Assembly (NCBI GenBank): GCA_020354625.1
Contig: CP070651.1
Span: 3,662,911-3,726,910, forward strand
Direction: 5' to 3'
DNA from: Trueperaceae bacterium
Lineage (GTDB): Bacteria > Deinococcota > Deinococci > Deinococcales > Trueperaceae
Length of the DNA stretch: 64,000 bases
The translations under genes and the position numbers were made by a program. Each line of letters opens with the position of its first letter. The first letter of the stretch is position 1. Below are positions 51,065 through 57,130 of this stretch, one piece after another. A model generated the notes under the pieces. That model made no database searches. It was not told the DNA's origin and saw nothing but the letters and a program-made list of their open reading frames with translations.

Positions 51065-51694
51065 TTACAATCCGAGAGCACGGAGCAGACCGAAGAGCAG
51101 GCCCCTGAAAAAGAGCATGATCGCACTCGTCACACCGATCGCGCTCAACACAAAAAAAACCAGGACAAATCCGAGAATACCGAACTTCGCGATCTCGCCG
51201 ATAACACGCCGCACCTCGGGATTGCCCCAGGCGAGCGCAGCACGGGCACCATCGAGTGGAAAGACGGGGAAGAGATTGATCACGGCGTGGAGGATCGCCA
51301 CGTCACCCGTGACCAAAAAAGCTGTCGCCACGTCGCGCTCCCCCGTATTGGAAACGAGTGCCGCTATCAGGTAGGTCACGAAGGCAACGACCAGGTAGGC
51401 GAGCGGGCCGCTATACCACACCAGCGCCTCTTGCCGACCTCTGCCGCGGTAGTTGCGGCTGTTGACGGTGATCGTCTTGGGCCAACCGAATCCTAGCAGA
51501 AAGAGGAAGAGCACCCCGAACGGCTCGAGGTGCTGCTGGGGATCGAAGTTCATGAAGCCGTTGAGCTTGGGGCTGTGGTCGCCGTAACGCGACGCTACCC
51601 AGGCCTGGACGATGTTATGAAAGATCAGCGCCATGATCATGACGATGGCGCTGATGATTAGGACGGTCGGATTGTCGAAGAACCTTAGAATCAT
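51065..51694 (-). CDS. Site-2-protease-family membrane protein without HExxH
   Basis: A 209-aa polytopic protein that matches the M50 (FtsP/Rv2625-like small S2P) family over its length. The second motif NLFPVFPLDGARA, which holds the third zinc ligand Asp, is near residue 145. The first motif, normally HExxH, reads FHNIVQAW near residue 26: the catalytic Glu is Asn and the second His is Gln. Zinc binding and peptide cleavage are therefore unlikely in the usual form. The rest of the fold, including the helix around GDHSPKLNG, is well kept. The start follows the tRNA nucleotidyltransferase stop closely, with GAGGAG 9 nt upstream. Confidence 0.82.
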   Translation of the reverse strand: MILRFFDNPTVLIISAIVMIMALIFHNIVQAWVASRYGDHSPKLNGFMNFDPQQHLEPFGVLFLFLLGFGWPKTITVNSRNYRGRGRQEALVWYSGPLAYLVVAFVTYLIAALVSNTGERDVATAFLVTGDVAILHAVINLFPVFPLDGARAALAWGNPEVRRVIGEIAKFGILGFVLVFFVLSAIGVTSAIMLFFRGLLFGLLRALGL

Positions 51695-51700
51695 CGAGTT

Positions 51701-54205
51701 TTACTCCTCGGAGTGGAGGAGCGCCGGCAGCTCCGCAATCAGGTTTCGCGCTAACTCGAGTTCCTCTTCGAAAGTGTGAACCCGCTGGGCTGCACGCGCC
51801 CTGGCGACCTCCTCGAGGACTTTGCCGACCTCGGGACCAGACGCCAGCCCCAAGTCTAACACGTCCTGACCGCGCAGTTTCCGTCGCCTCGGCACCTTCT
51901 CGAAAGCGGTGACGCGCGCTCTGAGCTCCGGGCCGAAGGCCTTCACCACCGCCCGCCCGGCCTCTCCGAGGCGCTCGAGATCTTCGTCCCTGACCAGCTC
52001 GCGCCGTTCGATGTCGAGCAGCCGGCCGCGGGCCTGGAGGTAGCGCTTGGGCCAACGAAATGCTTCGAAGTGCGCTCCCACTCGATCGTCCTCGAGCCGC
52101 AGCAGGAGTGCCAAGAGACAGCTCTCGCCCGGCAACGCGATCTGTTGAGCCAGTTCATCGAGGGTGAGCAGCAGTTGCCGGTCGACGCTGAGGTTAAACA
52201 TCGCTCCGAGCGCCCCGATCTCTTCGAGATAGAAGAGCGCGGGCCCGGGACGGGGTTCTTGGCAACAGAGCTCGAGCTCGCTCCGCAAACGCTCCCGGCT
52301 CACCTTGTCGAGTACCTCGGGGATCAGGGCAGCTTTGGCCCGCTGTAACGTGATGTCGTCAAAATGGAAACCGAGGCGCCCAGCCAGGCGTGCCCCGCGC
52401 AGGATGCGCGTGGGATCCTCGATGAACGACAGGGGGTGGAGTAGCTTGAGCTCCTTCGCCTCCATGTCGGCGAGGCCACCGTAGGGGTCGAGCAGGGTCG
52501 CCGGTTTGGGATGAAAGCGCAAGGCGAGTGCGTTGACCGTAAAATCTCTCCGGGAGAGGTCCTTTCGGAGCGTGCTCGGGGTGACGGTGGGTAGGGCGCC
52601 GGGGTGCCGGTAGTATTCCTCACGGGCTGTGGCGAGATCGATCACCAGGCCGCTCGGCAACACCAGTGTGCAGGTGCCGAACCCTTGATGACAGTTCAGT
52701 CGCCCCCCAAACGACGACTTTAGGATGCGTCCTAATCGTTGGGCGTTTCCAGCTTCCAGTACCAGATCGAGGTCTTGAAGGCCTGTGCCGAGCAAGGCGT
52801 CGCGGACCGTGCCGCCTACCAGGTAGATCGCCGTGTCGGGAGCTGCCTCGGCTGCTTTGGCCAGGACATCGAGAACCATGGTGGGGAGGCGCGACAACAC
52901 TCGATCGGAAGGGATCTGCGTCGCTTTTGTCTCGTGGCGGGCGGCGATGAGGTCGGTGCGTGTCACGATGCCAACCAGCTCATTACCCCGCATGATCGGG
53001 AGGCGACCCACGTTGTTTGTCATGACCAGTTCTTCTAATTCGGCGAGGGTAGAGCCCTCGTCGGCGGTGATTATGTCACGCGACATGAAGCCCACTACCG
53101 AGGAGCGTCCGAGGCCGTGACGGAGCGCTCGTTCGAGGTCGCGGCGCGAGAGGATGCCGACCAGCTGCTCCTCTTTGTCGATGACCGGGACTCCGTTGTG
53201 ACCGTAGTGAATCAATAGGCGCTGGGCTTCGGTAACGGTGGCGTCGTCGCGGATCGTTTTCACCGGATGACTCATCAACGTGGCGGCGGTCAATACCGGT
53301 ACCGCGTACCGCTCCATGGTTTCGAGCGCTGTCTCGAGCGCCGTATCCGGATCGACATCGGCCTTTGCGAACGCAGCGCCCGGGTGTCCACCGCCCCCGA
53401 ACGCTTCGGCAAAGGCGGCTGCCACGTCGAAGTTCTGATGGGCCCGGCCGAAAAGGAGCGTCTTTTCTCCCATGCGTACGACCAACAGCGCGGCATCGGC
53501 TGAGAACAGCGTGAGGAGTTGACTGCAGAGGCTGGACACCCCTGGTAGGTACTGCGGGTAGTGAAAGCTCGAGACCACCAGATGGTGACCGGCCAGCGTG
53601 ATCTCGCGGGCGTGTTCCAACATCGTCTCTTGAAAGGTGCGGTGTTCTGTGCGGTAGACCTCGCGGGTGAATTTTTGAACCAACTCCAGACTCGCTCCGC
53701 AACGCAGCAGATAGGCGGCTGCTTCGTAATCGTCGGGCTTGGTGAGCTCATAACTCAGATTCCCGGTGTCTTCGTGGATGCCCAAGAGCGCCAGACTTGC
53801 AAGTGAAGGGGAGACTTCGATCCCTCTCGTCCTGAGTTGGCGCGTGAGCAGGGTGGCGGTGGCACCGACCTGTTCTACCAGACCGCGTGCTGCCGGGATG
53901 GCGTTACCCGGCCTCGGGTGGTGGTCGTAAAGCGTGATCGGGACCTTACCGATCAGCTCGTCGAAGGGTTTGATCCGGGTACGGTCGGCGGTGTCGACCA
54001 CCACCAACTCGCTTATCTCGGCCAAGTCGATCTGATCGACCTCCAATAGCTCGAGCTGGTCTCGGTAGAGGTGGATGAACGTGCGCACCCCGTCGCCAAG
54101 ACCTCCTTGAACCGTGGCGAACGAACCTGGGAAGACGAGCTTGGCGAGCGCAAGGCTCGCCAGCGCATCGAAGTCGGGCTGTTCGTGGGTGATAATGAGC
54201 CGCAT
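51701..54205 (-). CDS. tRNA nucleotidyltransferase fused to DHH and CBS domains
   Basis: An 834-aa four-part protein. A DHH phosphoesterase domain (about 1-150) has HEQPDFDAL, DTADR and DHHPRPG; a DHHA1 domain (to about 310) has the GGGGHPGAA. Two CBS repeats span about 315-425. The C-terminal class II tRNA nucleotidyltransferase (about 455-830) has GGTVRDALLG, the DLDLV metal Asp pair and RDFTVNALA. In Aquifex and Deinococcus relatives, such enzymes share CCA synthesis between a CC-adding and an A-adding protein, so this could be either one. The DHH part suggests an added nuclease or nucleotide phosphodiesterase role. TACACT is 8 nt before the ATG. Confidence 0.93.
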   Translation of the reverse strand: MRLIITHEQPDFDALASLALAKLVFPGSFATVQGGLGDGVRTFIHLYRDQLELLEVDQIDLAEISELVVVDTADRTRIKPFDELIGKVPITLYDHHPRPGNAIPAARGLVEQVGATATLLTRQLRTRGIEVSPSLASLALLGIHEDTGNLSYELTKPDDYEAAAYLLRCGASLELVQKFTREVYRTEHRTFQETMLEHAREITLAGHHLVVSSFHYPQYLPGVSSLCSQLLTLFSADAALLVVRMGEKTLLFGRAHQNFDVAAAFAEAFGGGGHPGAAFAKADVDPDTALETALETMERYAVPVLTAATLMSHPVKTIRDDATVTEAQRLLIHYGHNGVPVIDKEEQLVGILSRRDLERALRHGLGRSSVVGFMSRDIITADEGSTLAELEELVMTNNVGRLPIMRGNELVGIVTRTDLIAARHETKATQIPSDRVLSRLPTMVLDVLAKAAEAAPDTAIYLVGGTVRDALLGTGLQDLDLVLEAGNAQRLGRILKSSFGGRLNCHQGFGTCTLVLPSGLVIDLATAREEYYRHPGALPTVTPSTLRKDLSRRDFTVNALALRFHPKPATLLDPYGGLADMEAKELKLLHPLSFIEDPTRILRGARLAGRLGFHFDDITLQRAKAALIPEVLDKVSRERLRSELELCCQEPRPGPALFYLEEIGALGAMFNLSVDRQLLLTLDELAQQIALPGESCLLALLLRLEDDRVGAHFEAFRWPKRYLQARGRLLDIERRELVRDEDLERLGEAGRAVVKAFGPELRARVTAFEKVPRRRKLRGQDVLDLGLASGPEVGKVLEEVARARAAQRVHTFEEELELARNLIAELPALLHSEE

Positions 54206-54213
54206 CCAACGGT

Positions 54214-54219
54214 AGTGTA
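54214..54219 (-). promoter_or_regulatory. Leaderless -10 element TACACT
   Basis: TACACT on the minus strand ends 8 nt before the ATG at 54205. The divergent trmL promoter lies 25 nt away. Confidence 0.6.
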
Positions 54220-54243
54220 GCGACTTTTGGGCAGAGAGGGTGT

Positions 54244-54249
54244 CACACT
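54244..54249 (+). promoter_or_regulatory. Leaderless -10-like element CACACT for trmL
   Basis: CACACT ends 6 nt before the GTG at 54256. It differs from TANNNT at the first base. Confidence 0.4.
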
Positions 54250-54255
54250 GGATGG

Positions 54256-54723
54256 GTGATTCATGTCGCGCTGTTCGAACCCGAGATCGCTGGAAACACC
54301 GGTAATATCGCTCGTACCTGTATGGCTGCCGGTGCTCGCTTGCACCTCATTCGACCGCTCGGTTTCCGGCTCGACGAGCCTGCGCTCCGCCGCGCAGGCA
54401 TGGATTATTGGCGGGAGCTCGATCTTTCCGTTCACCCGAGCTATGCATCGTTTGTAGAAACCTTCCGCATCGCATACCGGCACGGCCGGGTCTTTGCCTT
54501 TACCACCAAAGCAGACTGCCACTATTCCCAGGTGACGTATCGTGAGGGAGACGTGTTGCTATTCGGACCCGAGTCGAGAGGGCTTCCGGGCGAGGTTCGG
54601 TGCGACGCCTGTTCGGTGCGGCTGCCGATGGTGGCCGAGGCGAGATCGCTGAACCTGGCGGCGAGCGTGGCGGTCGGTCTGTACGAGGCCTGGCGTCAGA
54701 CCGGATTTGCTGGGGGAGAGTAG
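54256..54723 (+). CDS. trmL: tRNA (cytidine(34)-2'-O)-methyltransferase
   Basis: A 155-aa SPOUT methyltransferase. The N-terminal EPEIAGNTGNIARTC, the middle LLFGPESRGLP and the final MVAEARSLNLAASVAVGLYE form the knotted SAM site. It methylates the ribose at wobble position 34 of tRNA-Leu. The GTG start matches the family N-terminus (MIHVALFEPEI). It is divergent from the tRNA nucleotidyltransferase gene, itself a tRNA enzyme. Confidence 0.94.
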   Translation: MIHVALFEPEIAGNTGNIARTCMAAGARLHLIRPLGFRLDEPALRRAGMDYWRELDLSVHPSYASFVETFRIAYRHGRVFAFTTKADCHYSQVTYREGDVLLFGPESRGLPGEVRCDACSVRLPMVAEARSLNLAASVAVGLYEAWRQTGFAGGE

Positions 54724-54770
54724 TGAAAAGCGACCAGGACCGGCCTTGAGGAATCGTGCCTTATTTTACG

Positions 54771-55823
54771 TTACGGCTGTCGGAGCTCCGTGTTTTGATC
54801 GAGGCGGCCGATGAAGGCGACAAGCAAGGCGATGACATGTTCGAGATCTTCCGGATCGATCAGTTCGTTGGGAGAATGCATGTAGCGGTTCGGGATCGAG
54901 ACCACGGCCGTGGGAACGCCGGATCTGCTCTTGGCGATGTCGTCTGCATCGGTGCTGGTGTAGCGTGGTGCGAGCCCGATCGTGTACCCGATCCCCTGTT
55001 GCTCGGCCGTCTCTCGTAGAAGCGCGAGCACGCCCCGGTGGATGTAAGACCCAACCGAGAGTTCGGGTCCGGACCCGAACGGTGTCTCTCCTTGCTGGCG
55101 CTTGTCGATTCCGGGGATGTCGGTGGCGTGGGTGACGTCCACGGCGATCGCCACGTCGGGTGCAAGGGCGTGAGTAGCGATGGCGGCACCGACACCATGG
55201 ATCTCCTCTTGGACGGTCGCTACCGCGATGACTTCAGCGGTTTGTCCTTGGGCGCGACGAGCGGCTTCGAGGACGATGTAGGCACCGATCCTGTTATCGA
55301 TCGCTTTGGAGGCGAAGCGCCCGTTCAAAAGCTCGACAAAGGGTTGCTCGATGACTGCGAAGTCGCCGGGACGGACGTGTGAACGGGCTTCGTCGCCATC
55401 TTTGGCCCCTACATCGATCCACATATCGTCGATACGACTGATCTTTTTACGGTCGTCAGGTGTCATGAGGTGGATCGGTTTTTTTCCGATGACGCCCGGA
55501 AGCTCACCCGCGTACCCCACTACGCGTACCCGTTGCCCAACCAGTTGTTCAGGATCCCAGCCGCCGATTCCTTTGAAGTAGATCAGTCCTTCGTTGTCGA
55601 CGTAGGTGATCAGCAAGCCGATCTCATCGATGTGCCCTGCCAACATGACCCGGGGCCGCCCTCCTCGGTTGAAGTGGGCGAGGACGTTGCCGTAGCTGTC
55701 GGTGCTGACATCGGCGCCGTAGCCTATCGCCTGCTCACGCCATACCGTGGCCGGCTTCGACTCGAAGGAACTCGGCCCTGGGGCTTCAAGCAGATTCTTG
55801 AGAAATTCGCTTTCAATCGCCAT
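54771..55823 (-). CDS. M42 family aminopeptidase
   Basis: A 350-aa M42 metallopeptidase. Metal ligands appear in AGHIDEIG, KAIDNRIGAY, VQEEIHGVGA (catalytic Glu pair), DVTHATD and the late SPNELID. M42 enzymes are cytoplasmic, dodecameric aminopeptidases that clear short peptides. The frame runs to 55919, but TATGCT lies 7 nt before the ATG at 55823 and the family N-terminus (ESEFLKNLLEAPGPSSFE) starts there. It converges on trmL. Confidence 0.93.
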   Translation of the reverse strand: MAIESEFLKNLLEAPGPSSFESKPATVWREQAIGYGADVSTDSYGNVLAHFNRGGRPRVMLAGHIDEIGLLITYVDNEGLIYFKGIGGWDPEQLVGQRVRVVGYAGELPGVIGKKPIHLMTPDDRKKISRIDDMWIDVGAKDGDEARSHVRPGDFAVIEQPFVELLNGRFASKAIDNRIGAYIVLEAARRAQGQTAEVIAVATVQEEIHGVGAAIATHALAPDVAIAVDVTHATDIPGIDKRQQGETPFGSGPELSVGSYIHRGVLALLRETAEQQGIGYTIGLAPRYTSTDADDIAKSRSGVPTAVVSIPNRYMHSPNELIDPEDLEHVIALLVAFIGRLDQNTELRQP

Positions 55824-55830
55824 ATTTCGG

Positions 55831-55836
55831 AGCATA
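55831..55836 (-). promoter_or_regulatory. Leaderless -10 element TATGCT for the M42 peptidase gene
   Basis: TATGCT on the minus strand ends 7 nt before the ATG at 55823. Confidence 0.6.
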
Positions 55837-55933
55837 CCTCGCCACCTGCGCAATGAAATGCCCCGAGGGCCACACATGCTAACCGGACTCCGGTATTCGG
55901 CCATGAGCCGGGTACCCATTTACGAGCCTATCT

Positions 55934-56938
55934 TTAGGTAGGCGCTCCCACTTCGACCGGTTTCGACTGCAGCTTGCGAACGATAGCAGAAATAGCTTTT
56001 TGTACGTGGTCCAGACCGTTTTCAATAAAGATATCGCTGGTCTTGGTACCGGAACCTGCCGAGCCGATCACGTAGAGCCCGTCAACGTCAGTCTCGAAGG
56101 TATCTGGATTCAACACCGCCGCCTGGGTCTTGGGCTCGAGTTTTACGCCCGCGCCCTTCAAAAGTTCGGGCGAAGCGAAATAGCCGGTTAGTAAGAACGT
56201 CTGCTCGGTGGGGATCTCGAACACCGCGCCCTCTTTCTCAACGATGACGGCACCTCGAGTGATTTCGCGCGCCACCGTGTTGAAGTGGGCCTTGATCGAT
56301 CCCTCCTTGACACGGTTTTCCAAGTTGGGCCGGATCCAATACTTCAAACTGTGCCGAAAGCCTTCTCCGCGGTGTACGATCGTGACTTCGGCACCCCCGC
56401 GGTAGAGATCGAGGGCGGCGTCGGCGGCGCTGCTCCCTGCACCTATGATGGTGACTTTGCGTCCGTAGAAAGCGTGGGCCTCGGTGTAGTAATGGCTTAC
56501 GTGTGCTTGCTCTTCTCCTGGAATGCCGAGCTGCTTGGGGTTGTCGAAATACCCAGTCGCCATCGCCACCATCTTGCTGTTCAAAGCCCGATGCTCGCCA
56601 CTTCGGTCGCGTGTTTCGAGACGAAAGCCGTCAGCCTGCTTGGCGATGCCGGTGACTTGCGTGTAGAGCTTGATGTCGAGCGCTTCATTGTGCACGACTT
56701 TTCGATAGTACTCGAGCGCCTCTTTACGCGTCGGCTTGTCGGTTGCGGTTACAAACGGGTGACCACCGATCTCGAGCCTTTCGGAGGTCGTGAAAAACGT
56801 CATGTAGGTCGGATAGTGGTAGATTGCGTTCGCGATACAACCCTTTTCCAAGACGACATAACGCAACGATGCCCGCTTGGCTTGGATGGCGGCTTCGAGG
56901 CCGATGGGACCTGCCCCGATGATTGCTAGATCGACCAT
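55934..56938 (-). CDS. ypdA: YpdA-type FAD-dependent bacillithiol disulfide reductase
   Basis: A 334-aa pyridine-nucleotide disulfide reductase-like protein. It has an N-terminal FAD loop IIGAGPIGLEAA and a central NADPH loop IIGAGSSAADAA. A single Cys (EKGCIANAI) sits in the position used by YpdA (Cys14-type), with no CxxC redox pair, which separates it from thioredoxin reductase. YpdA reduces bacillithiol disulfide; bacillithiol is the main low-mass thiol in Bacillota and Deinococcota. bsh genes are not in this window. TAGGCT lies 7 nt before the ATG at 56938. Confidence 0.9.
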   Translation of the reverse strand: MVDLAIIGAGPIGLEAAIQAKRASLRYVVLEKGCIANAIYHYPTYMTFFTTSERLEIGGHPFVTATDKPTRKEALEYYRKVVHNEALDIKLYTQVTGIAKQADGFRLETRDRSGEHRALNSKMVAMATGYFDNPKQLGIPGEEQAHVSHYYTEAHAFYGRKVTIIGAGSSAADAALDLYRGGAEVTIVHRGEGFRHSLKYWIRPNLENRVKEGSIKAHFNTVAREITRGAVIVEKEGAVFEIPTEQTFLLTGYFASPELLKGAGVKLEPKTQAAVLNPDTFETDVDGLYVIGSAGSGTKTSDIFIENGLDHVQKAISAIVRKLQSKPVEVGAPT

Positions 56939-56945
56939 ATCTTCA

Positions 56946-56951
56946 AGCCTA
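56946..56951 (-). promoter_or_regulatory. Leaderless -10 element TAGGCT for ypdA
   Basis: TAGGCT on the minus strand ends 7 nt before the ATG at 56938. Confidence 0.6.
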
Positions 56952-57025
56952 GCAGAGAGCATCGGTGATTTTTGTGTTGGGGACACCCTCCAGGTGGGTT
57001 TGGGAAGGCATTGCATCAAAACCTG

Positions 57026-57130
57026 GTGGTGATGAGTCATGAGAGATGAGCGATGGGAGTCGCGAAGGCCTTGGTTGAGCCAAACCGTTCGGCTATCTAC
57101 TACTCATCACTCATTCCTGTTCACTCACGA
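57026..57130 (+). repeat. Intergenic repeat, copy 5 (short, diverged)
   Basis: Left units GGTGATGAGTCATGAG and right units TACTCATCACTCATTCC, with TTGAGCC and TTCGGCT inside. It is about 105 bp, shorter than the others. It lies between the ypdA and nth genes. Confidence 0.6.

Follow-up and report, generated by a model that had tools for sequence, protein, structure and literature searches.

A site-2 protease homologue without HExxH, conserved across sampled Deinococcota families, is best read as a pseudoprotease

Introduction

The rhomboid family is well known to include dead intramembrane proteases. Among site-2 proteases (S2Ps), a 2022 paper describes EGY3, a protein restricted to plants, as the only known pseudoenzyme of the family (PMC9355673), and a review of bacterial S2Ps from 2023 places the HExxH motif in all S2Ps (PMC10202637). 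The window analysed here, a stretch of 64,000 nucleotides from a Trueperaceae bacterium, contains a gene for a small protein, denoted psi-S2P, in which the position of HExxH is occupied by HNIVQ. Is this a damaged gene, an enzyme with an unusual motif, or a pseudoprotease kept for another task? The initial annotation favoured a pseudoprotease with a role in binding or regulation, and this is the reading best supported by the comparisons described below.

No paper on a bacterial pseudo-S2P was found in the open-access literature, a scope that leaves most subscription journals outside, and the open-access work on S2Ps of Thermus and Deinococcus and on the SpoIVFB/BofA Asn residues holds nothing on psi-S2P. 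The novelty would lie in a bacterial S2P pseudoprotease, the concept of a pseudoprotease itself being familiar. With a dead S2P present across sampled Deinococcota families, and its active sibling encoded next to it in Thermus, which can be cultured and is amenable to genetics, the regulation or replacement of intramembrane proteases by a pseudoprotease would become directly testable. The lineage that carries the dead copy alone is a natural experiment.

Genomes and comparisons

The phylum sample consisted of 111 Deinococcota genomes, of which 104 gave a match and from nearly all of which the region was retrieved. Family names of the sampled genomes were assigned by match to named records. A query with a single protein gave no match on the genome contigs; a query with an alignment gave matches. 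Presence of an active partner was scored at the adjacent position, and genome-wide in Trueperaceae only. Selection was measured in the closest pairs of sequences, those with synonymous differences below about 0.3, and distant pairs were left unused owing to saturation and composition. The tree was computed from 96 rows with IQ-TREE under LG+C20.

The psi-S2P gene and its former active site

The features of the locus are:
51065 to 51694, reverse strand: psi-S2P, an M50/S2P-fold protein of 209 residues with HNxxQ replacing HExxH (sequence, profile, tree and fold)
51605 to 51619, reverse strand: HNIVQ at the HExxH position, residues 26-30 (sequence; H26, N27 and Q30 invariant in 102/102 genomes)
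51248 to 51262, reverse strand: FPLDG, residues 145-149, with Asp148 at the third zinc-ligand position of S2Ps (sequence)
51695 to 51700, reverse strand: the 6 nt, read directly, between the TAA of the tRNA nucleotidyltransferase gene and the psi-S2P ATG (51694)
51701 to 54205, reverse strand: DHH-CBS-CBS-PolyA_pol protein, an A-adding-type tRNA nucleotidyltransferase by its domain matches, directly upstream

The reading frame of psi-S2P runs from its ATG to a stop codon with exactly the boundaries first annotated, and includes the stretches ...MALIFHNIVQAWVASRYGD... and ...INLFPVFPLDGAR... of the protein. The family helix reads ALIFHNIVQAW and the second motif reads FPVFPLDG. Sequence and codons (His26 = CAT, Asn27 = AAC, Gln30 = CAG) agree with the earlier reading of HExxHA as FHNIVQAW: His26, at a zinc-ligand position, is retained, the Glu is replaced by Asn27, and the second His is replaced by Gln30. 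Asp148 is present, so that the second motif was also correctly described as keeping its Asp ligand, and the Gly of LDG is Met in some Trueperaceae genera. Three base changes separate HNIVQ from HExxH (two for Glu to Asn, one for His to Gln), which excludes a single read error as its source.

Homology to the M50 family is clear from several comparisons, although the Pfam Peptidase_M50 model matches psi-S2P only weakly (20.9 bits, under the 27.2 cut-off). Active paralogues match it with E values down to 2e-21. A mixed family profile, with active members included, matches the S2P of Methanocaldococcus jannaschii (mjS2P) at 1.8e-11, its first aligned stretch spanning HELGH and its second spanning the PMDG motif, and the tree described below places psi-S2P within the family.

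The initial annotation also held that all membrane segments are kept, and a confident AlphaFold2 model built from a 64-sequence alignment (mean pLDDT 94.6, pTM 0.89) bears this out. The best PDB match of the model is 3b4r, the structure of mjS2P (probability 1.00, E 1.3e-3, TM 0.48, rmsd 6.9). As a control, the active sibling from Thermus was modelled in the same way (pLDDT 95.1), and its best PDB match is likewise 3b4r (TM 0.44-0.47). The TM-scores for the S2P membrane fold are modest at 0.44-0.48, and their equality in the two models indicates that the fold is about equally well preserved in the dead and the live copy. In position, psi-S2P agrees with mjS2P at the first zinc-ligand His and at the Asp, whereas the Glu and the second His of mjS2P are replaced.

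Conservation across Deinococcota

The carriers of psi-S2P are Trueperaceae, Thermaceae, and three other family-level groups. The 111 phylum genomes apparently include no Deinococcaceae genome, and no Deinococcaceae locus was among the best 80 loci of the collection scan. In the alignment of Deinococcota orthologues that had been proposed as a check, HNxxQ is present in every genome that encodes the protein (102/102) and in all 77 distinct sequences. Asn is encoded by AAC in 71 of these and by AAT in 6, and Gln by CAG in 57 and by CAA in 20. Since both codons vary synonymously, conservation acts on the residues and not on the DNA. Asp148 is found in 76 of the 77 distinct sequences, the exception being an orthologue from family-level group f3 with Ser. 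Only H26, N27, Q30, A34, G46, and G68 are fully invariant columns of the 102-row alignment. The constancy of HNxxQ is, at the level of sequence, far beyond chance.

These counts had used motif patterns, and a check by profile only was therefore made in which the motif was not required. It returned 116 reading frames that fit the psi profile, three of them without HN..Q: a fragment truncated at its N terminus and, from each of two genes split between frames, the second half. In one single-contig, Thermus-like genome (G052, L071:4083-4687), a frameshift close to a G run splits psi-S2P, with the active copy intact; the gene was either misread in sequencing or lost very recently.

The closest psi-S2P pairs have dN/dS of 0.04-0.22, which points to purifying selection on a protein whose catalytic residues are gone. 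Two outcomes had been named that would speak against a pseudoprotease: near relatives with intact HExxH together with relaxed selection, and a sequencing error at the two codons. Neither was found, as no orthologue inside the psi clade has HExxH (0/102) under the low dN/dS just given, and HNxxQ lies three base changes from HExxH and is invariant in 102 genomes. Invariance, synonymous codon variation, and low dN/dS together rule out pseudogene decay, relaxed selection, and sequencing error. A good Trueperaceae genome (G100, 96% complete) is without psi-S2P, so the protein is not indispensable.

The active tandem paralogue

The intact HExxH of relatives does exist, as a separate tandem paralogue that had been overlooked, and never within the psi clade itself. 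An HExxH S2P lies directly downstream of psi-S2P on the same strand in 64/66 non-Trueperaceae genomes and in 3/36 Trueperaceae. This sibling has, typically, FNLLPxPPLDG as its second motif, and all 59 active-type reading frames in the Deinococcota loci (some loci overlapping) have HE..H. In 62/67 pairs the active gene starts -4 to +16 nt from the psi stop, the commonest spacings being a 4-nt overlap (24 pairs) and direct abutment (16 pairs), an arrangement that suggests translational coupling. Beyond the catalytic motif, N51, N100, N141, and N148 (active-copy numbering) are invariant in the active copies and not invariant in psi-S2P. The Asn ahead of the second motif (INLFPV) is retained in most Trueperaceae genera and is Tyr, Phe, or His in other families.

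The genome-wide search in Trueperaceae found the active type in only three genomes (G074, G108, and G109) and no active orthologue in the others. Two further genomes, G005 and G006, have no adjacent active copy. The window's genome (4.29 Mb, single contig) is without an adjacent HExxH paralogue, and its only other clear M50 proteins are an RseP-like protein (HELAH) and a CBS-domain S2P (HEFGH), neither of which is orthologous to the active sibling.

Origin and history

All 43 HNxxQ proteins in the tree form one clade with support of 100/100, which points to a single origin, and the 26 active Deinococcota copies form a separate clade (97/94). Trueperaceae stand apart from the other families within both clades, as fits a duplication older than the sampled families. 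The stem of the psi clade is long (2.0 changes per site) and is followed by strong constraint, which is, in sequence terms, the pattern of a change of function. Among the best 80 loci of the collection scan, all 56 relatives from outside Deinococcota have HExxH; these are mostly from Pseudomonadota, with some from Thermodesulfobacteriota, Myxococcota, and Bacillota. Plasmid records gave only distant "site-2 protease" matches.

Four changes on the psi tree explain the presence and absence of the active partner. Because the three active copies from Trueperaceae nest within the clade of active proteins, the simplest account is one of loss: most Trueperaceae, with the window's genome among them, would have given up the active partner and retained the dead copy.

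The neighbouring tRNA nucleotidyltransferase gene

The initial annotation described psi-S2P as coupled to the tRNA nucleotidyltransferase gene, and this stands for the window's genome, where 6 nt separate the two; it does not extend to every lineage. The closest NCBIfam model of the upstream protein is "A-adding tRNA nucleotidyltransferase", with a score under the model's own cut-off. Such a gene lies directly upstream of psi-S2P in most genomes of Trueperaceae, Thermus, and the family-level groups f4 and f2. It is missing from this place in Meiothermus, Calidithermus, f3, and the Trueperaceae genera g3, g10, and g17, in which psi-S2P persists. As the coupling is not universal, it is weak evidence on the function of psi-S2P. 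Fusion of the two proteins was considered and rejected: frames of up to 1245 aa cover both genes, with the upstream part out of frame.

Several observations concern the neighbourhood at large. In Trueperaceae (window 51701-57040; L045, L033, L038, and L031) it is conserved around psi-S2P, with genes named by eye as an M42 aminopeptidase-like protein, an opposite-strand RNA methyltransferase-like protein, the tRNA nucleotidyltransferase, and psi-S2P; some Trueperaceae genera keep this neighbourhood with the tRNA nucleotidyltransferase alone missing. Sampled genomes of the unlinked lineages, and G100, have only a shorter enzyme type of ~440 aa, located elsewhere (L210-L215), and genome G110 gave no tRNA nucleotidyltransferase match. 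Outside Deinococcota, in Desulfacinum hydrothermale (L136:1314-3452), a gene upstream of an active S2P likewise encodes an A-adding-type tRNA nucleotidyltransferase. From gene order, the neighbourhood may be older than Deinococcota or may have arisen recurrently.

Proposed role

The loss of the general-base Glu and of one zinc-ligand His predicts that proteolysis is abolished and that the substrate groove is what is left. For SpoIVFB, the single change E44Q in HExxH is enough to abolish activity (PMC11486902). The strict conservation of the replaced site argues for a specific remaining task. We infer from sequence that psi-S2P lacks proteolysis, has a binding role, interacts with the active copy, and has a task of its own in Trueperaceae; it probably holds or regulates other membrane proteins. 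We consider it fairly probable that psi-S2P has been re-purposed as a membrane subunit that does not cleave and that works with its active paralogue where one is present.

The steps leading to such a subunit may be outlined as follows. A compact S2P would have duplicated in tandem before the sampled Deinococcota families diverged, giving rise to psi-S2P. One copy would have lost catalysis early, with Glu to Asn removing the general base and His to Gln removing a zinc ligand, and the former active site would then have been fixed as a new invariant polar site of H26, N27, and Q30, with D148. Transmembrane segments would most likely bind in the old substrate groove of this non-cleaving subunit. 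Where the active paralogue is present, the two proteins are probably produced jointly and cooperate, with the dead copy holding substrates for the active one or restraining it. In Trueperaceae, which are mostly without the active copy, psi-S2P would work alone or with another membrane protease and have its own task, for example to hold membrane proteins or to present them to a different protease or enzyme. Two points count against a role as partner: it leaves the dead copy kept alone in most Trueperaceae without explanation, and adjacency may reflect the duplication itself, the pairing persisting by operon inertia.

Known systems offer partial likenesses. Compact bacterial S2Ps ("site-2 protease family protein", Peptidase_M50), among them the tandem Deinococcota copy, share homology, length, predicted fold, and the LDG motif with psi-S2P, which differs in that HExxH is gone, the conserved Asn positions are not invariant, and a new invariant HNxxQ has appeared. 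The iRhoms, to which psi-S2P was initially compared, and the Derlins are alike in concept, as dead intramembrane proteases kept as binders or regulators. The comparison holds only as an analogy; rhomboids are an unrelated, eukaryotic protease family in these cases, and EGY3 is the closer precedent. Like psi-S2P, EGY3 is an S2P homologue without HExxH that is highly conserved in its clade, and it is thought to stabilise other proteins (PMC9355673, PMC10978774). It is unlike psi-S2P in being a plant thylakoid protein with no tandem active partner described, and the likeness is one of description. SpoIVFB with BofA and SpoIVFA is a case in which a membrane partner keeps an S2P inactive, although BofA and SpoIVFA are described as inhibitory proteins and not as S2P homologues (PMC11486902).

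The strongest alternative, though still an unlikely one, is that psi-S2P is an adaptor or chaperone that acts independently of the neighbouring S2P, mainly binding membrane proteins and either passing them to a processive, FtsH-like protease or protecting them. It would account for psi-S2P standing alone in 33/36 Trueperaceae and in G005 and G006, and it has precedents in the rhomboid protease YqgP, reported as an adaptor of FtsH (PMC7231995), and in EGY3, which stabilises chloroplast proteins without protease activity (PMC10978774). However, it leaves the tight tandem pairing with an active S2P in 64/66 other genomes unexplained.

Conservation of the replaced residues could also be taken to mean that H-N-x-x-Q ... 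D is a new functional centre derived from a protease active site, metal-free or differently metallated, for ligand binding or a different chemistry, a proposal that on sequence grounds is improbable. A related reading, a re-engineered enzyme in which H26, N27, Q30, and D148 make up a new active or metal site with other chemistry or another metal, we regard as distinctly improbable. The residues now at the four positions once catalytic vary little or not at all, as expected for a site that still performs chemistry or binds a particular ligand, but the neighbouring Asn residues that are invariant in active copies are not so in psi-S2P, and one f3 orthologue has Ser for Asp148. To our knowledge, the M50 family offers no precedent for a re-engineered active site, which also weighs against it.

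It is very improbable that psi-S2P is an accessory of the tRNA nucleotidyltransferase, anchoring a soluble CCA- or A-adding enzyme at the membrane. The 6-nt spacing here, the same gene order in most Trueperaceae, Thermus, and other groups, and the Desulfacinum S2P downstream of such a gene would all suit this role, but psi-S2P is kept in Meiothermus, Calidithermus, f3, and several Trueperaceae genera in which the link is missing, and the genes are not fused, the long frames over both being out of frame with the enzyme. An ordinary active protease with an alternative motif, a decaying pseudogene, or a sequencing error has only general M50 resemblance in its favour and is barely credible against invariance in 102 genomes, low dN/dS, and the absence of the Glu as well as of a zinc-ligand His.

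A further M50-like protein in Trueperaceae

Three Trueperaceae genomes encode a second, more degraded M50-like protein, in which HExxH is replaced by HG..V/L or QG..A and LDG by LTG (or TTG):
L176:3882-4496 (G100): degraded M50-like protein
L177:4021-4626 (G083): degraded M50-like protein
L178:3854-4477 (G082): degraded M50-like protein

This type is absent from the window's genome. Its sequences, on long branches, may derive by decay from the active copy that was lost. They are nearer to the active-type profile than to psi-S2P, and their genes are unlinked to that of the tRNA nucleotidyltransferase.
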